Shown piece after piece: positions 3,869 to 27,862 of a stretch of 30,837 nt of DNA. The stretch is from a virus. The stretch lies in IMG/VR virus record IMGVR_UViG_3300009506_000154, positions 1 to 30,837 of that record; one strand, written 5' to 3'. The position numbers were made by a program, and so were the translations under genes. Position 1 is the stretch's first letter. Each line of letters opens with the position of its first letter. Under the pieces are notes generated by a model. It had not been told where the DNA came from. It saw only the letters and a program-made list of their open reading frames with translations, and did not search any database.

Positions 3869-4186
3869 TCAACTCGCTGGCTCTGGCAACGCTGGCCAAA
3901 CCCTAAAATTAAATTTTGTCCCCCAAAAAACATCCGATCCATTTGTCACCTTGGACTCCCGCTCCCATTCTCCATCCTGGCTCAAAAAACTTGTGTCTGC
4001 CTTATATTCCATTTTGCCATCTGTCCCGTCATTGGTTAAACTGGCTGTTTTTTTGGCTGCTGTCCCATCTGGCAACCTGAAAATCATCTCAATGGTTGCC
4101 GCTCCAATGTCAACAATGTTGCCATCCTGATCCTTGATAACATCCCTGAATGTTGGGCATGATCCAACTCTGATCTCACCTTTCAT
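3869..4186 (-). CDS. Beta-sandwich phage structural protein (BppU N-terminal-like)
   Basis: A 105-residue beta-rich protein. The order GDxx..FRDVIKDQDGNIVDIGAATIEMIFRLPDG, then NDGTDGKMEYKAD, then WERESKVTNGSDVFWGTKFNFRVWP, is the pattern I know from small phage structural domains related to the N-terminal part of baseplate upper proteins. These often accompany receptor-binding or fibre proteins. Its ATG overlaps the stop region of the repeat protein upstream by four bases, with GAGGTTTTGAGGT just ahead, so the two are translationally coupled. The exact role in this virion is not visible. Confidence 0.6.
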   Translation of the reverse strand: MKGEIRVGSCPTFRDVIKDQDGNIVDIGAATIEMIFRLPDGTAAKKTASLTNDGTDGKMEYKADTSFLSQDGEWERESKVTNGSDVFWGTKFNFRVWPALPEPAS

Positions 4187-5997
4187 ACCTCAAAACCTCC
4201 TCGGATTGCTGCATCCTGCTCAACAACCTGGACAATATTGGCATCCCGCTCAACCAATTGGACAATGTTGGCATCCTGCTCAACAACCTGGACAATGTAA
4301 GAGTCCATCTCAATTATAAACTTAATAATCTGCTGAAGAAGATTAACATCTTGCCCTGTGAGGGTAAACGTCCCATGGCTGGCTGCCAAAACATAATGCC
4401 TGGCAAATCCAACATCCTGGCCCGTCAATATAAATGATCCCTGGCTGGCTGCCAGTAATCGAGCAACAAACAACCCGGCTGCCTGCCCAACCAGGCTGAA
4501 TGATCCCGACTCGGCAATTAATGCATACGCTCCAACCTTGGTTAATGTGACATCCTGACCTGCCAGGCTGAATGTACCAAAACCCGCTCCCAACAACCTG
4601 CTGGCGGCAAATCCAACATCCTGCCCCGCCAGGCTGAATGTCCCGGATGCTGCAACCAATTGGACAATTTTTGAGATTCCAACATCCTGCCCGCTGAGGG
4701 TAAACGTCCCCTGCCCGGCTGCAATCAACCTGGATCCCAACAACCCGGTTGCCTGCCCCGCCAATGTAAATGTCCCCGACTCGGCAATTAACTCATACGC
4801 TCCAATTTTGGTTAATGTGACATCCTGCCCCGCCAATGTAAACGTCCCCTGGCTGGCTGTGATCAATCTGCTGGCGGCAAATCCAACATCCTGCCCCGCC
4901 AGGCTGAATGTACCAAAACCCGCTCCCAAATCGTCCCATTGTTTTAATAACCCGGTTGTCTGCCCAACCAGGCTGATCGTCCCATAATCCGCTGCCAACA
5001 ACCTGGTTGCCAATAACCCGGCTGACTCCCCAACCAGGCTGAATGTCCCGGATGCTGCAACCATCCGCTTGATCCTGGATAACCCAACATCCTGCCCTGC
5101 CAGGCTGAATGTCCCAAATGCTGCCGCCAAATCTGCCCATTGCTTTAACAACCCGGTTGCCTGACCCGTCAATGTAAACGTCCCCTGGCTGGCCCCCAAC
5201 AACCTGGTTGCCAACAATCCGGTTGCCTGACCCGCCAGGCTGATCGTCCCCTGGCTGGCTGTCAATAACCTGCTGGCCAATAAATCTGTGATCTGCCCTG
5301 CCAGGCTGAATGTCCCCGACTCCGCAACCAATGGGCTGGCTGCTGCAACTGCTGTGACCCTTGGGACTCGTGTAAATCCATCAACTGGAGTCCCGCCTGT
5401 GCTGTATAAATAAAAATCCCAATAATCCCCATTTGATGCATACGTTGAGTCAATGACCAAACAAAACTCAATCTCTGTATATTGGCCATTTAAACTAATC
5501 GTCCCTGTCCCGGCAGATGTCTGTGCGTCATCATACTCACCATCAACCGCTGTCCCGCTCCATGTCAAATCAAAATCAAAAATTGATATTAATGCCCCAT
5601 CTGCAATGCTGTTGGCATCATTGCTGTATTTGATCCCGTCTGTCCTTGATGTTGTGACTGCTGTTGGAGTCCCCCCGCTGTTTTTTTCTGCATAAATCTG
5701 GAATGCCCATGGATCATTTTTTCCATTGTTTTCTTGGGCAATGATCCTGAGTCTAAATACTGTGTCAACATTGATCGACTGGTTGCTGTTTTGGCTGCCC
5801 ATATATGTTGCTGTCGTCAATGATCCGTCATCATTTCTAAACCAAAAATCCTCCTGTGTTGTGTTGGCTGATGTCCCGCCCTGGATAACCGGGACTCTGT
5901 GCAGCATCCCCCGCCAAAAACCAAACCAATGCCTGCCGACTCGCAACCATCCCCTGTGATAATCAAACAACCCGTCAATCCCGAATAATTTAATCAT
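4183..5997 (-). CDS. Large repeat-rich virion surface/fibre-like protein
   Basis: A 604-residue protein with three parts. Residues 1-225 are non-repetitive and beta-rich (a likely carbohydrate-binding or jelly-roll-like region with WAFQIYAEKNSGG and YWDFYLYSTGG). Residues 228-565 contain 15 tandem units of 22-24 residues, each opening with G[TS][FI][STI]L.G[QE]. Residues 568-597 are three 10-residue units of the form IVQVVEQDAN. No signal peptide is visible. G.F.LTGQ repeats occur in phage surface proteins, so a virion decoration or adhesion role is inferred. It overlaps its neighbours by four and eight bases and lies among head-tail and tail-completion genes, so it is probably virion-associated. 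Confidence 0.72.
   Translation of the reverse strand: MIKLFGIDGLFDYHRGWLRVGRHWFGFWRGMLHRVPVIQGGTSANTTQEDFWFRNDDGSLTTATYMGSQNSNQSINVDTVFRLRIIAQENNGKNDPWAFQIYAEKNSGGTPTAVTTSRTDGIKYSNDANSIADGALISIFDFDLTWSGTAVDGEYDDAQTSAGTGTISLNGQYTEIEFCLVIDSTYASNGDYWDFYLYSTGGTPVDGFTRVPRVTAVAAASPLVAESGTFSLAGQITDLLASRLLTASQGTISLAGQATGLLATRLLGASQGTFTLTGQATGLLKQWADLAAAFGTFSLAGQDVGLSRIKRMVAASGTFSLVGESAGLLATRLLAADYGTISLVGQTTGLLKQWDDLGAGFGTFSLAGQDVGFAASRLITASQGTFTLAGQDVTLTKIGAYELIAESGTFTLAGQATGLLGSRLIAAGQGTFTLSGQDVGISKIVQLVAASGTFSLAGQDVGFAASRLLGAGFGTFSLAGQDVTLTKVGAYALIAESGSFSLVGQAAGLFVARLLAASQGSFILTGQDVGFARHYVLAASHGTFTLTGQDVNLLQQIIKFIIEMDSYIVQVVEQDANIVQLVERDANIVQVVEQDAAIRGGFEV
4207..4296 (-). repeat. Three tandem 30-bp coding repeats
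   Basis: The C-terminus of the repeat protein is encoded by three consecutive 30-bp units giving IVQVVEQDAN, IVQLVERDAN and IVQVVEQDAA. The outer two units are nearly identical in DNA, with the middle one diverged. An imperfect half unit precedes them. Such heptad-like hydrophobic spacing could form a short coiled coil or helical stalk. Confidence 0.8.
4303..5316 (-). repeat. Fifteen ~66-bp coding repeats (G-T-F-S-L-x-G-Q units)
   Basis: Direct repeats inside the 604-residue gene. Units run 22, 22, 23, 22, 22, 23, 22, 24, 22, 22, 22, 24, 22, 22 and 24 residues. Within the array some larger pairs recur, for example the units ending TKIGAYELIAES and TKVGAYALIAES, and those with LLKQW.DL, which suggests duplication of multi-unit blocks. 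The core in DNA (plus strand) is a variant of ccaggctgaatgtccc. Confidence 0.85.
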
Positions 5998-18259: not shown

Positions 18260-18493
18260 TCAATCCATTGGAAGATTAATTTTAATATTTCTGCGTATAT
18301 AAAATATCCCAACCCTGGCAATCAACTCCAAACCTGACAACTCCCCAAACCCAATATGGTTATATGATTTTTGTTTTATTCGCTCCTCCAACCTGGCTGC
18401 CATTGTTTTGATCCGCTGCCTGTCCTCATCGTCCAATGCCGCCAATGCATTGTCTAAATCCTGCCGATTCAATTTTTCGCAATTATGGCTCAT
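18260..18493 (-). CDS. Hypothetical 77-residue protein
   Basis: A small soluble protein (MSHNCEKLNRQDLDNALAAL at the start, then DDEDRQRIKTMAARLEERIK) that is probably helical in the first half and ends KINLPMD. I do not recognise a family. The ATG overlaps the stop of the MT-A70 methyltransferase by four bases, with GGAGCAGAC ahead, so they are co-translated. It is the last gene before the hairpin gap. Confidence 0.6.
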   Translation of the reverse strand: MSHNCEKLNRQDLDNALAALDDEDRQRIKTMAARLEERIKQKSYNHIGFGELSGLELIARVGIFYIRRNIKINLPMD

Positions 18494-19050
18494 GTCTGCT
18501 CCAAATCAACATCTCTGGCAACCTCATTGCCCCAAACCGCCCAACCAGGTTGCCTCCTCCGGGCAAACAACTCCAAATATTTTTTGCCCGGGTATAATGC
18601 CTCAATTTTTCTGTATTGCTCAAATGGCTTTTGGCTGTGTTGTCTTATTGGTGAATAGATCAATGCCTGGATGCTCCGATCCTCGACTGTCATCTTGCCC
18701 CTGGTTGCCAACAAACATGGCTCTGTGTTGGCTCTTGTGTAATATCCCAATCCTGTGAAAAATCCAAATCCTGATTTTTTGGCTTTAACCCAAACCCATG
18801 CAATTGTTTTATATTCAAATCCCCATGCCTCAATGACCTCCCGAGTCTCATATAAAATTGGCCATGTGATCCAAATAAACAATGCAGCATTTTTGCCAAC
18901 CAGGCTGCCAATATCCAATGCAGCAATCTCATCAATGCTCATAACCGGATAATGTTTTTCTGCCGATCTCGACTCTTTGGACTCAACTCCCCATGTCTTA
19001 TAATGCCATGGGGGATCCGCCAAAATGACATCAAATTTGTTGTCTGTCAT
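18490..19050 (-). CDS. MT-A70 family DNA adenine-N6 methyltransferase
   Basis: A 186-residue methyltransferase. The start MTDNKFDVILADPPWHYKTW holds the catalytic D-P-P-W motif at residues 12-15, which is diagnostic of MT-A70 enzymes. A KHYPVMSIDEIAAL segment, then FIWITWPILYETREVIEAWG and TIAWVWVKAKKSG, are the family's next blocks. SQKPFEQYRKIEALYP and YLELFARRRQPGW near residues 145-170 form the SAM-binding end. Phage members often protect phage DNA from restriction. The start is chosen at the ATG at 19050, keeping the standard N-terminus; its ribosome site is weak and it overlaps the previous gene by 20 bases. Confidence 0.92.
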   Translation of the reverse strand: MTDNKFDVILADPPWHYKTWGVESKESRSAEKHYPVMSIDEIAALDIGSLVGKNAALFIWITWPILYETREVIEAWGFEYKTIAWVWVKAKKSGFGFFTGLGYYTRANTEPCLLATRGKMTVEDRSIQALIYSPIRQHSQKPFEQYRKIEALYPGKKYLELFARRRQPGWAVWGNEVARDVDLEQT

Positions 19051-19267
19051 ACCATTCCCATGCCTGATCCTCTGTGTCAAACTCAATCATCTCATTTGCC
19101 TGGTTGTAAAATGTCTCAACCCCATTGCTCCATTTGCTTTTTTTCAATAACCGCCATTTTGCTCTTTTTTCGTCCCAAAATGCAACGATTCTGCCCCATG
19201 GCATGTCAACATACCTTTCTGCCCACAAAACCCCATTTTGCCCCCAAATCTTTCCATTCCGGCTCAT
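19031..19267 (-). CDS. Hypothetical aromatic-rich small protein
   Basis: A 78-residue protein rich in Trp and Lys (MSRNGKIWGQNGVLWAERYV; FWDEKRAKWRLLKKSKWSNG) with an acidic C-terminal helix (DTEDQAWEWYDRQQI). I know no family. It overlaps the membrane protein upstream by four bases (ATGA) and the MT-A70 gene downstream by 20 bases, so it is a coupled operon member. Confidence 0.6.
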   Translation of the reverse strand: MSRNGKIWGQNGVLWAERYVDMPWGRIVAFWDEKRAKWRLLKKSKWSNGVETFYNQANEMIEFDTEDQAWEWYDRQQI

Positions 19268-22361: not shown

Positions 22362-23033
22362 TCAATCCTCCTCATCAACCTCAAACATCTCAAATTGTAC
22401 TGGCCATTCAATTGGACTCTCTCCGCTCAACCTTTGCCTGGATGTCTCAAACGACTCCTCATCAATCTCAAATCCGATCCATGGTCGACTCATCCGCTCC
22501 GCAACAACCGCTGTTGTCCCCCCGCCCAAAAATGGATCAACAATTAAATCTCCCTCCTCTGTAAAAACTTCCATAAAATAACGGGCCGTTGACTCCCTCT
22601 GCCCCCATTTATGGAAGCGTTTATCACCAAACCGCCTGATCTTGCCATCGTCAAAATATACTCCAATAACGTTTGTTACTGGCATCCCATCCCCCCCCTT
22701 GGGCCTGTATGCCAAAATTGACTTGTAACGACTGATCGTTTTTTTGGGCCATAAAATTGTACTGTTGCCCTGGTTGTATTCAATGTAATCAAAAAAATAC
22801 TCCATGTTTTGTCCCAATAATCCAAAAACCTGATCCTTATAATAGACTCCTGCATATGTCAACAAAAACCCGTCTGGTTTCAAAACCCTGGCTGCCCATT
22901 CTCCCAACCAACCATATAATGGCAAAAAATCCCTTGGATATGGGGGATCCGTAAAAATCAAATCAACCGACTGATCATCAACCAGGCTGCCCAACTCCCG
23001 GGCATCTCCAAAATGGATCCCTAAATCAATCAT
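22362..23033 (-). CDS. DNA methyltransferase, DPPY type (N4-cytosine/N6-adenine)
   Basis: A 223-residue SAM-dependent methyltransferase. DLIFTDPPYPRDF holds the catalytic DPPY at residues 29-32, and VDPFLGGGTT at 165-174 is the SAM-binding motif; this order is that of the beta class. GWLGEWAARVLKPDGFLLTY and RPWIGFEIDEESFETSRQRL are the expected flanking motifs. No target-recognition region is obvious beyond the middle 80 residues. Its ATG overlaps the VRR-NUC gene by eight bases. It could be a solitary protective methylase; the recognition sequence is not visible. Confidence 0.92.
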   Translation of the reverse strand: MIDLGIHFGDARELGSLVDDQSVDLIFTDPPYPRDFLPLYGWLGEWAARVLKPDGFLLTYAGVYYKDQVFGLLGQNMEYFFDYIEYNQGNSTILWPKKTISRYKSILAYRPKGGDGMPVTNVIGVYFDDGKIRRFGDKRFHKWGQRESTARYFMEVFTEEGDLIVDPFLGGGTTAVVAERMSRPWIGFEIDEESFETSRQRLSGESPIEWPVQFEMFEVDEED

Positions 23034-25055: not shown

Positions 25056-25616
25056 CTATTTGTCATTTAATTTTGCCTCCAACAAATGCTGCCGCCGGGC
25101 ATCAATAAATTGCTTGACATCTGGCAACGTCATCTCATCAATCATGGCATCATTAACCGCCTGCTCATATGCCTTAAAAAAATGGGCTCTGTCTGCCATC
25201 AATGAGTCGGCTGTGGATGGGAATGCTGGCCAACCCAACTGCCTGGCAACCAACTCAACCAATGGATGACTCCATTGATAATGGCTCCGGGTAATAAACC
25301 ATCCGGTCTCCTCCGATCCATCCAATTTGATCTCAATCTCTGGCCCTGTATTGATAACCTCTGCCCATGCCTCATATGGGGTTGGGACTCCGGCTGCCAA
25401 CGTCCTCAACCTGACAACCCCCGATCTCAACTCATGGACTGATGGGAAAAATTGTCCCCTGGTTGCCAAATCTTTGGCGGCTGCCCTTAACTCATTGGGA
25501 TCCAAATCCTCCAATAAAATTGCATATGCTGCAATTGTCTCTTTGGTTAACTTATACCTTGGATAAACTGCCGCCAACATGGTCAAAACCTCAACAACAT
25601 CCTGCCTGGTTGCCAT
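25056..25616 (-). CDS. Putative replicative helicase loader/inhibitor (G39P-like)
   Basis: A 186-residue protein. Its N-terminal 65 residues show the SPP1 G39P-like pattern: VEVLTMLAAVYPRYKLTKET, then AYAILLEDLDPNELRAAAKD and ATRGQFFPSVHELR, where a hydrophobic helix, the YP, a D.....L and the FP.VHELR element follow in the expected order. G39P-type proteins bind DnaB-like helicase and deliver it to the initiator-bound origin. The C-terminal half is longer than in G39P and of unknown role. It follows the initiator gene by one base (TGA, G, ATG) with GGAGG ahead. The phage helicase is not in the window, so a host DnaB may be used. Confidence 0.65.
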   Translation of the reverse strand: MATRQDVVEVLTMLAAVYPRYKLTKETIAAYAILLEDLDPNELRAAAKDLATRGQFFPSVHELRSGVVRLRTLAAGVPTPYEAWAEVINTGPEIEIKLDGSEETGWFITRSHYQWSHPLVELVARQLGWPAFPSTADSLMADRAHFFKAYEQAVNDAMIDEMTLPDVKQFIDARRQHLLEAKLNDK

Positions 25617-25617
25617 C

Positions 25618-26496
25618 TCAAACCTCCTGGATTGCCTCAATATCCTCTTGTGTAAACTCTCTCAATGCAGCAAACCCGGCTGGCTCTGAGTCCTTTGCCT
25701 GGCTTTTTGCCATTGCCTGACAATATGCCATCAAATCCCCATCAACCTTTTGGCTGCTGGCCTGCCAAATCAATGTTGCCAATCTCCCGGCTCCTCCAAC
25801 CTTCCGGGCTGTTTTGCCAATATAACCAAAATCTGGCTGCTCAACTAAATCTGGCATCAATGTTTGGATCATCTCCATCAATGCTGCTGGTTTGTTATTG
25901 GAGTCCTTTAATTTTTCATGCCATCCCGCCAGGTTGTTTGGGGTTGTGTGTCCCGGCTCTGCCGGGACTCCGTTAAGATCATTATCACTATCACTATCAC
26001 TATTACTTTGCCCTGGCTGGTCGACTAGGTAGTTTTCTAGGTAGTTTTCTAGGTAGTTTTTATCCCTAAATCCCCCCGGCTGATCCCAATTTTCTGTTAT
26101 TATTTTATGCTTTGGCCCATGATGCCTGACCCGATCCGTCCAACCTTTTGGGGCTGGATAATCGCTGGACATTGCCCATTGTTTGTTTTGATACTTCCAC
26201 CAATTAACAACCTGAATTATTACCTTATTTTCTAGGTAGTTTTCTAGGTAGTAAACTAAAATCAAACGCTGCTGCTGGAGGGCATTAATGCAACGCTCAA
26301 CCTCATCCAAACTGATGTCATCCATGGGCCAAACTTCCGATCTGACTGCTGCCGGGTTGCCCAACATCCTGCCCTGATCGTCTGCAACTGCAATGATGCC
26401 ATGCCATAAATCCCGGGCAACATAATCCAATGCAACAAAATTCTCTGATCGTCTCATCCGGCTGTCAACCAACCGTCTTTTTGATACTATGGTCAT
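25618..26496 (-). CDS. Replication initiator with internal iterons (phage RepO/DnaD-like)
   Basis: A 292-residue protein. Residues 8-45 (RLVDSRMRRSENFVALDYVA then DLWHGIIAVADDQG) and 60-100 have the layout of phage replication initiator winged-helix domains. The middle is a polar linker that includes YLEN repeats at residues 83-90 and 147-157, coded by the 12-bp iterons, and a Ser-Asp run. The C-terminal segment (PDFGYIGKTARKVGGAGRL; QAMAKSQAKD) is helical and may bind the helicase loader. Such initiators bind iterons in their own gene, as lambda O does. The ATG at 26496 has GGAG seven bases ahead; the TTG three bases upstream is less suited. It is followed by the loader gene. Confidence 0.68.
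   Translation of the reverse strand: MTIVSKRRLVDSRMRRSENFVALDYVARDLWHGIIAVADDQGRMLGNPAAVRSEVWPMDDISLDEVERCINALQQQRLILVYYLENYLENKVIIQVVNWWKYQNKQWAMSSDYPAPKGWTDRVRHHGPKHKIITENWDQPGGFRDKNYLENYLENYLVDQPGQSNSDSDSDNDLNGVPAEPGHTTPNNLAGWHEKLKDSNNKPAALMEMIQTLMPDLVEQPDFGYIGKTARKVGGAGRLATLIWQASSQKVDGDLMAYCQAMAKSQAKDSEPAGFAALREFTQEDIEAIQEV
25983..26006. repeat. Hexanucleotide repeat TATCAC
   Basis: Three perfect TATCAC units (25983-26000) and one variant (TATTAC) lie 18 bases from the first iteron block. They encode a Ser-Asp run in the initiator. A short A+T-rich repeat next to iterons fits a melting element, but it may simply be a linker repeat. Confidence 0.6.
26025..26060. repeat. Iteron block A: three perfect 12-bp repeats CTAGGTAGTTTT
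   Basis: Three head-to-tail copies of CTAGGTAGTTTT (26025-26036, 26037-26048, 26049-26060). They lie inside the replication initiator gene and give the YLEN repeats in the protein. With block B they are the most likely origin of replication. These units contain AG twice each although plus-strand AG is rare in the sampled DNA, which suggests that the sequence is kept for a reason other than codon choice. Confidence 0.8.
26232..26255. repeat. Iteron block B: two 12-bp repeats
   Basis: One perfect CTAGGTAGTTTT (26232-26243) and one copy with a changed end, CTAGGTAGTAAA (26244-26255). They lie 171 bases right of block A in the same gene and orientation. The segment between holds A+T-rich runs (for example at about 26090-26110 and 26215-26231). 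Two separated iteron groups in one initiator gene fit a theta-type phage origin. Confidence 0.75.
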
Positions 26497-26569: not shown

Positions 26570-27628
26570 TTAAGCAGGCTCATCCATCTCCATTTGTTGT
26601 CCCTGCCTGGATTGCAAAATGGCAATTATTGCATCCCGTTTTAACGTCAACTCCTCCAACAAATCCAAATCCTGGCCTGTGTCCCCAATGTTGTTTAACT
26701 TTGCCTGGATTGCTCCCCATGTCTGCCTCAATTCGTTGTCATCAAAATCCTTGTAAAATTTGCCATCTCGAGTCGCAACCGTCTCTGCCAATTCCAGACT
26801 CATGGTTGGATCATTGATCGCAACCTCAAAATCCGGCTCTGTTATATCTGCCTCAATGTAATCCTCCGGCTCCATCAATGGGGTAAAACTCTCCCCATCC
26901 GGCAATGCAAACGCTGTGACCTCTCCCAATTTTGCCCTCACCCATTGGGGATCCGCCTCAATGGATAACAACCATTTTTGCATTCTGACCCGCTGCCCAT
27001 CCTTGCCGGGTATGCTGATCTTTTTGGGTCTCCGTCTCAAAACTAATGGTATGCCTCGAATGACTCCATCATTCAAATGCTTAAATGCCTGCAACTGCTG
27101 GCTCAAATTGTCAATGTCATGGATGCTGGTTGTATGGACTGTCATATAGGCTGCCCGGGCCAACTCCGGGACAATGATTTTTAAACGTCCAACCGGGCTG
27201 CAAAATATTGGCTTGCCCTCATAATCATTGCCAACTGGATCCCCATCCTTATATGGGATAAATGGATCCCCATCCTTGACTCGGATGTCCCCGGTCTTTG
27301 TGTCAACCAGGTAAATAAATTTTTCACCATCTGACCTGGCAACCATTCTCCCGGCTGTATATGCCTCTAACCAGGCATCCCAACAACGCTCAATCTCATC
27401 AAATGGCAAAATAATGTTGATCTCCGCTGGTTCATTGCCATAAACCTGGACAAATTTGGCTGCCGATCCTTGCTCCCGATCATCAAACTCAACCCTAAAA
27501 TATTCCAAATCTTTTGGGACTTGATACTCCGATCCATCCGCTCTGGTCTTTGTGATCTTGATCCCTTTTCTTATCTGCCCGATCTCCGGGAATGAGAGTC
27601 CCCGGTCTGTCAATCCTTTAATTGGCAT
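26570..27628 (-). CDS. Gp3-like recombination directionality factor candidate
   Basis: A 352-residue protein. PEIGQIRKGIKITK near the start and VPKDLEYFRVEFDD fit the opening of the Gp3-like recombination directionality factor family (Pfam PF18897), which redirects serine integrases from integration to excision. FCSPVGRLKIIVPEL, followed by LARAAYMTVHTTSIHDIDNL, is its conserved core, and LVLRRRPKKISIP comes after. The ATG at 27628 has GAGGAGGCTATTG ahead; a longer frame overlaps the broken gene upstream. No serine integrase is present in the window. Some relatives are annotated only as hypothetical, so the role is a family inference. Confidence 0.58.
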   Translation of the reverse strand: MPIKGLTDRGLSFPEIGQIRKGIKITKTRADGSEYQVPKDLEYFRVEFDDREQGSAAKFVQVYGNEPAEINIILPFDEIERCWDAWLEAYTAGRMVARSDGEKFIYLVDTKTGDIRVKDGDPFIPYKDGDPVGNDYEGKPIFCSPVGRLKIIVPELARAAYMTVHTTSIHDIDNLSQQLQAFKHLNDGVIRGIPLVLRRRPKKISIPGKDGQRVRMQKWLLSIEADPQWVRAKLGEVTAFALPDGESFTPLMEPEDYIEADITEPDFEVAINDPTMSLELAETVATRDGKFYKDFDDNELRQTWGAIQAKLNNIGDTGQDLDLLEELTLKRDAIIAILQSRQGQQMEMDEPA

Positions 27629-27862
27629 CAATAGCCTCCTCAAAATAAATGTTGGCAACCAAAATCCCATTGTCAACCAAATCATAATTGACATGATCAA
27701 AATTAAACTGCTGCCCATTAAATCCAACCCCATTGGACTCAAACATCCTGATCATTGCCTCAATCTCTGTTGGTAAACCTCAATCTCTGTTGGTAAAAAT
27801 CTCCCAATTGCCTTGCCCCAATTTGCCGCTGGCAAAAAAATCAAAACTGGCAATGCATCCAT
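27618..27862 (-). pseudogene. Small gene broken by a 20-bp tandem duplication
   Basis: From the ATG at 27862 (after GGGGAGG) the frame reads MDALPVLIFLPAANWGKAIG and then ends early at 27752, giving 36 residues. A perfect 20-bp tandem duplication (27758-27797) lies just before the stop. Removing one copy restores one open frame of 74 residues: the joined part runs from ...LPTEIE into MIRMFESNGVGFNGQQFNFD and ends IYFEEAIDAN at 27618, overlapping the RDF-like gene start. 20 is not a multiple of three, so the duplication shifts the frame. The distal 45-codon frame from 27755 could be re-initiated. No family recognised. An assembly error cannot be excluded. Confidence 0.7.
27758..27797. repeat. 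Perfect 20-bp tandem duplication
   Basis: The sequence cctcaatctctgttggtaaa occurs twice back to back, at 27758-27777 and 27778-27797. Both copies are identical, which suggests a recent slippage event or a sequencing/assembly artefact. It disrupts the reading frame described for 27618-27862. Confidence 0.9.

Follow-up and report, generated by a model that had tools for sequence, protein, structure and literature searches.

A probable replication origin within a phage initiator gene and comparable repeats in related phages

To our knowledge, few phage origins of replication have been mapped by experiment, and the repeats inside the initiator gene of IMG/VR virus record IMGVR_UViG_3300009506_000154 raise the question of whether they form one. 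The window analysed here is the whole record (30,837 bp), and all of its recognisable genes lie on the minus strand. We consider it probable, at about 0.83, that positions 25618 to 26496 encode a phage replisome organiser and that the phage replication origin lies in the middle of that gene, a reading that draws on sequence comparison. An origin inside the initiator gene had been proposed in the initial annotation of this DNA, and the proposal is now supported in that a relative keeps the repeats, related phages show repeats at the DNA level and, in one group of these phages, the repeats covary with residues of the DNA-binding domain. The features on which the argument depends are as follows.

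25618..26496, minus strand: replication initiator gene, 292 aa (PHROG replication initiation families, E values from 2e-11 to 1e-3)
25978..26007, minus strand: short-repeat array of five 6-bp units AGTGAT (ATCACT on the plus strand), 17 bp downstream of block A
26025..26060, minus strand: iteron block A, three perfect copies of CTAGGTAGTTTT, encoding NYLENYLENYL in the linker
26176..26187, minus strand: codons for NKQW, directly after the wing; in related phages this segment covaries with iteron sequence
26203..26262, unstranded: lowest duplex stability of any 60-bp window in the contig (top 0.02%) by nearest-neighbour energies, at block B
26232..26255, minus strand: iteron block B, two copies of which the second ends differently, encoding part of the wing hairpin (about residues 82-89)

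The initiator gene and its repeats

The initiator comprises an N-terminal winged-helix domain, a linker modelled with low confidence and a helical C-terminal domain, and the ATG at 26496 is a possible start, in agreement with the earlier coordinates. The N-terminal domain matches the profiles of PHROG 2149, 16167 and 1408 (E values of 3.5e-5, 1.9e-11 and 4.4e-8, respectively), families annotated 'replisome organizer' that are likewise matched by all 44 of the aligned N-terminal domains, and it has structural matches to viral replisome organisers (E value of about 1e-8). A Pfam search with the initiator matched zero families; the RepA_N profile (PF06970) was thus not matched by the N-terminal domain, which bears a weak structural similarity to that family, and a sequence search of the PDB gave no credible match. 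The AlphaFold2 (AF2) model of the N-terminal domain, built from 44 sequences, is a winged helix with a mean predicted local distance difference test (pLDDT) score of 89 and wing strands at residues 79-84 and 91-96; it supersedes an initial model from four sequences, which was poor (pLDDT 59).

The coordinates bear out the initial description of five copies of a 12-bp unit in two groups inside this gene. Exact copies of CTAGGTAGTTTT begin at four positions, 26025, 26037, 26049 and 26232, the fifth copy (CTAGGTAGTAAA, 26244-26255) has a changed end, and the interval between the groups (26061-26231) is indeed 171 bp. Each unit joins a near-dyad of 8 bp, CTA-GG-TAG, to a T/A tract; read in the coding direction (AAAACTACCTAG), these become CTA-CC-TAG and an A tract. 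In the entire 30.8-kb contig there are five occurrences of the core CTACCTAG, every one within the initiator gene, and the iterons hold five of the contig's eight CTAG tetramers. An exact search of viral contigs for the double iteron returned no match.

Translation confirms that the iterons encode the YLEN repeats of the protein. The repetition exceeds chance: the two blocks are the stretches of the gene with the rarest codons (log10 P of about -9.6 and -9.2 per 10 codons, against a median of -4.0), and when codons were redrawn with the protein kept, at least four copies of any one 12-mer arose in 78 of 5000 trials. Block B encodes the last part of the first wing strand together with the loop, and it gives the window protein four extra residues that the other aligned sequences shown do not have. 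Most simply, an iteron would have been duplicated within the DNA-binding domain and have lengthened its wing, and we infer that the DNA repeats are primary and the YLEN stretches of the protein a consequence of them.

The TATCAC repeat that had been noted together with the iterons is present as the AGTGAT array (25978-26007), but it is not incidental: short repeats of this kind are a widespread element next to iterons, and the array is an instance of them. The array has no C on the coding strand, encodes SNSDSDSDND and is less stable than 99.5% of windows of the same length; we propose that it is an unwinding or strand-selection element. A+T-rich DNA had likewise been described here, and the duplex-stability calculation agrees: the least stable duplex of the contig, at block B, is a candidate unwinding region, and the region of block A and the AGTGAT array (25973-26072) falls within the top 0.3% of 100-bp windows for low stability. 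Easily unwound DNA beside the repeats, as in intragenic iteron origins, is therefore found in the window. In plasmid pSK41, Rep functions without the linker that the origin encodes (PMC5703833), which fits the view that YLEN and SDSD are by-products of DNA sites.

Conservation in the nearest relatives

Searches of viral contigs and annotated phages with the protein of the initiator or of the neighbouring Gp3-like gene alone found no relatives, and relatives were instead reached via the terminase, followed by a search within the matching records. One contig (G001, locus L068) has three genes in matching order, including a Gp3-like gene (332-1429) and an initiator 54% identical to that of the window. 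At the place of block A it carries 12-bp GAAAAYCACCTA repeats (1939-1971), adjoined by a TGATAG array (1983-2009), and at the place of block B a lone similar site, ACCAGGTGAAAAA. The repeats are thus kept, as diverged 12-mers, in the closest relative with the same initiator. The residues that follow the wing are NKQW in the window and VKQW in this relative, and the iterons are alike (CTACCTAG and CCACCTAG).

The initiator domain is shared by two further loci in Chloroflexota genomes (L071 and L072), from which we surmise that the host of the window phage is perhaps a member of the Anaerolineae. The first of these, in an Anaerolineales genome, has fourteen 11-bp CCCAGAGTGAC units in the linker at the same place (5431-5588), followed by TAACGG repeats. 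Since 11-bp units shift the reading frame at each copy, it is the DNA and not the protein that is kept. The second (L072:4986-5897) is a Pelolinea initiator with the same winged-helix domain, whose C-terminal part is a DnaA N-terminal domain (PF11638, E value 2.3e-8), a fusion that suggests direct recruitment of the host helicase instead of a loader gene.

Tandem arrays across the initiator family

A panel of 108 distinct initiator genes was assembled from two distant-homologue scans and the relative loci; it was dereplicated, yet its members are related, and the counts given for it are not independent events. With a tandem-array score of at least 40 as threshold, 98 of the 108 genes contain an array, compared with 31 of 336 flanking pieces of equal length and with a mean of 28.9 genes (maximum 35) after synonymous shuffling. 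Long arrays have periods of 10 bp (35 genes), 11 bp (18) or 12 bp (4), and are therefore mostly out of codon phase, while the periods of short arrays are 5-8 bp. Wherever a gene has both types (46 of 46), the long-period array is the 5' one, and the median gap between them is 10 bp. Perfect dyads make up 21 of the 57 long-array units, against 4.2 expected from shuffled units. The short arrays are strand-asymmetric (absolute GC skew of 0.63 vs 0.20) and less stable than 87% of the windows of their own genes. The layout is also present in a cultured relative, in gp39 of Streptomyces phage Ididsumtinwong.

Extra iteron blocks are mildly enriched on the upstream side of the linker array (0.90 per kb vs 0.36-0.54), and given that the enrichment is only mild we do not claim the two-block layout as a general feature. 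Four loci (L085:2158-2201, L189:2203-2235, L198:2165-2199 and L200:2170-2217) have an 11-bp array in the part that encodes the winged helix as well as linker repeats, so the DNA-binding domain may have acquired a second block on more than one occasion.

Covariation of post-wing residues with iteron sequence

Covariation was examined in the largest group of related loci (L079-L081 and L091-L170). The alignment column most informative on iteron class is 96, followed by 97; both lie directly after the wing and rank above the clade-defining columns. HQRIQ pairs with CAC[CG]GTG, HQR[IV]R with TTGCGGC-type units, and other residues before [IV]R with A+T-rich units, and eight of nine phylogenetically independent pairs agree. 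The rule linking residues to iterons was fixed in writing before the last scan, which supplied 29 new non-redundant loci as a held-out set. It was right for 15 of the 19 classifiable loci, where 6.3 were expected, and the pairing of Q with CAC[CG]GTG held in nine of nine. A split of the A+T-rich iterons into two classes (TGATATCA vs TTGCAA) failed in the same test; a coarser grouping, into three, would accommodate every one of the 19 classifiable loci, but was devised after they had been seen.

A Pagel-type test of correlated evolution, on 89 tips of a tree built without the motif, gave a likelihood ratio (LR) of 47.1 (P = 1.4e-9) for Q with CAC[CG]GTG and of 46.5 (P = 1.9e-9) for RxR with GCGGC-type units. 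These P values survive correction for about 100 columns and are optimistic, in that columns and regular expressions came from the training data and training and held-out loci were pooled. In a second phage group, IEKK with GTCGnCGAC, INRP with CTCACnGAG and NPH with GCACnGTGC also tend to agree; because motif and iteron there follow clades, this agreement is not counted as independent.

The simplest reading of the covariation suggests that the iterons within a gene are bound by the initiator which that gene encodes. More broadly, it seems reasonably likely that the initiators of PHROG 2149, 16167 and 1408 share a bipartite intragenic origin, iterons followed by strand-asymmetric repeats, with a recognition code after the wing that switches together with the iterons. 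As proposed, such an origin would consist of dyad-like iterons spaced 10, 11 or 12 bp and, about 10 bp further on, an array of 5-8-bp units, and the code, written on the motif HQx[IV]ab, would pair a=Q with CAC[CG]GTG, and x=R together with a=R with GCGGC/TTGC-type units.

Proposed mechanism and alternative explanations

The anatomy of the locus, its conservation in one relative, the DNA-level origin of the repeats, their occurrence in the family and the covariation in a related group were all computed here. From them we infer binding, melting, helicase loading and use as the origin in the window. The winged-helix domain, probably as a dimer, would bind the 12-bp near-palindromic iterons of blocks B and A, which are about one helical turn apart. 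The initiator complex could then wrap or loop the 171 bp between the blocks and open the weak DNA at block B and the AGTGAT array, with the asymmetric short repeats marking the identity of one strand for the initiator or the loader. Finally, the G39P-like protein encoded downstream would deliver a DnaB-type helicase, probably that of the host. This sequence of a nucleoprotein complex on the iterons, opening of neighbouring weak DNA and helicase delivery by a loader is modelled on SPP1 (PMC6316719), lambda O (PMC7466680) and pSK41 Rep (PMC5703833). Winged-helix initiators of the RK2 TrfA type in plasmids bind iterons as duplex DNA and also one strand of the repeats of the unwinding element (PMC4081077), and Bacillus subtilis DnaD reads a strand-specific motif (PMC10201434); by analogy, the short asymmetric arrays may serve a strand-specific role like that of TrfA or DnaD sites.

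Several observations weigh against an origin at this place. The relative in G001 has no tandem pair at block B, no array is seen in one Anaerolineae relative (G043), and 10 of the 108 panel genes have none at the threshold. In addition, the domains of the covarying relatives are only about 20-28% identical to that of the window, and the NKQW of the window is not directly readable by the residue code. The contig may also be a fragment, which leaves room for other origins. A switch in cumulative skew near the initiator, which the initial annotation had offered as a check, is not seen, GC skew being negative across the whole contig; because all recognisable genes lie on one strand, we regard this as uninformative rather than refuting.

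These last points bear on the alternative that survives best, namely that the iterons are initiator-binding sites that act mainly as an internal operator, for autoregulation or as a transcription roadblock, and that the origin lies elsewhere. The repeats inside the initiator gene are confirmed, and the support for their binding is the covariation in relatives, which shows recognition and not origin function; in addition, the contig is perhaps incomplete and no skew switch marks an origin here. We nevertheless consider it unlikely, as weak, strand-asymmetric repeats often come after linker arrays, in an invariant order that would be expected if an origin had an unwinding element, and as those intragenic sites of initiators that have been characterised (lambda O, SPP1 gene 38 and pSK41 rep) are origins.

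Many disordered linkers expand by slippage, and block A and the 6-bp units encode a linker predicted with low confidence, so the repeats could be a by-product of slippage, or a selected protein repeat (YLEN, SDSD), with no role as DNA. This is very unlikely in view of the predicted position of block B in a folded wing hairpin, the rare codons in which the repeat units are written, the panel's long-array periods of mostly 10 or 11 bp with many units being dyads, the fixed order of the arrays, the covariation of units with residues of the DNA-binding domain across the phylogeny, and the disappearance of most arrays on synonymous shuffling. Almost no weight is given to a lambda O-type origin proper, with an O homologue, O-type iterons and a lambda P-type loader: the plan is the same, with iterons and weak DNA in mid-gene and a loader gene next (PMC7466680), a lambda-O-like viral protein of phage Min27 is among the weak structural matches (E value 1.7e-3) and the next gene has a weak match to a P-like loader PHROG, but the initiator has no Pfam match, its structural match to O is far weaker than those to replisome organisers, the next gene scores better against a helicase-loader PHROG than as P-like and also matches a G39P-type profile (all weakly), and the repeat unit differs in length and sequence.

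Neighbouring genes and other features of the contig

The genes on either side of the initiator are as follows.

25056..25616, minus strand: G39P-like putative helicase loader, next gene downstream of the initiator (profile matches; synteny in G001)
26570..27592, minus strand: Gp3-like gene, recombination-directionality-factor-like, upstream of the initiator (PF18897, E value 4e-31; exact start not settled)

The initial annotation had an initiator followed by a G39P-like loader; the gene order stands, and the identity of the loader is plausible but weak by profile. The protein matches PF11417 (G39P) with an E value of 0.0016 and 19.4 bits, below the gathering threshold of 22, and the helicase-loader family phrog_2289 with an E value of 6.8e-5, and it has a syntenic homologue in G001 (E value 1.9e-58). 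Its position beside the initiator together with the PHROG match makes a G39P-like role plausible. None of the genes of the contig was recognised as encoding a helicase.

A 20-bp sequence, CCTCAATCTCTGTTGGTAAA, is perfectly repeated in tandem (two copies, 27758-27797) upstream of the Gp3-like gene and is possibly a regulatory site. Elsewhere, a long open frame (4183-5997) consists of GTFSLAGQDVGL-type repeats with a DNA periodicity of 66 and 201 bp and, near its end, a 30-bp repeat of the VVEQDANIVQ type; it likely encodes a structural protein. Two DNA methyltransferase genes, of the MT-A70 type and the N6/N4 type, lie at 18490-19086 and 22362-23033, respectively.

Significance

In the literature searched, which leaves most subscription papers outside its coverage, we found no experimental origin work for this initiator family, no description of a wing-hairpin block, a two-part layout or a recognition code, and none of in-gene repeats or a recognition code for the PHROG 2149, 16167 and 1408 proteins. 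If the two-part signature is true, sequence would suffice to locate the origin throughout a large family, of phages as well as prophages, for which Pfam has no model. If the code is true, post-wing residues would predict which initiators use which origins, including those of many uncultured phages. The locus would also be a case of DNA sites dictating protein, with an iteron lengthening the wing of its own proposed binding domain and array periods indifferent to codons, and the short asymmetric arrays offer a specific proposal for strand choice in helicase loading.

Comparison with known systems

Origins inside initiator genes are already established in lambda O, SPP1 gene 38 and pSK41 rep, and comparisons of lambdoid origins exist in the older literature. 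The initial annotation had drawn a parallel with lambda O, with a different repeat and protein; this holds for the layout, but SPP1 gene 38 and the RepA_N plasmids are equally close in kind. In lambda and Shiga toxin (Stx) phages, the O gene carries iterons and A+T-rich DNA in its middle, and extra Stx iterons add residues to O (PMC7466680), just as block B adds residues to the initiator of the window. Unlike lambda O, the window initiator has no O-family profile match, and its different repeat is arranged in two blocks 171 bp apart, one of them within the folded DNA-binding domain.

The oriL of SPP1 consists of direct repeats and an A+T-rich unwinding element inside gene 38, whose product gp38 is the replisome organiser, with gp39 (G39P) as the loader (PMC6316719). 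The window likewise has repeats and weak DNA within the initiator gene and a loader gene in the module. Its 12-bp near-dyad and 6-bp array are its own, however, its loader match falls below the Pfam cutoff and the contig has no recognised helicase gene. In pSK41, the Rep boxes lie in the middle of rep and the origin is inside the gene (PMC5703833), and the RepA_N plasmids pSK41 and pTZ2162 have semi-palindromic iterons with a poly-A tract (PMC7145576). The window shares with these plasmids a winged-helix N-terminal domain and an origin that would lie inside the initiator gene, although it has no sequence match to them and the structural match is weak (Foldseek E values of 0.02-0.2). RK2 TrfA belongs to a plasmid system in which the repeats of the unwinding element are 13-mers, but it offers a model for the short asymmetric arrays, whose binding as a single strand would, in these phages, follow the same principle.
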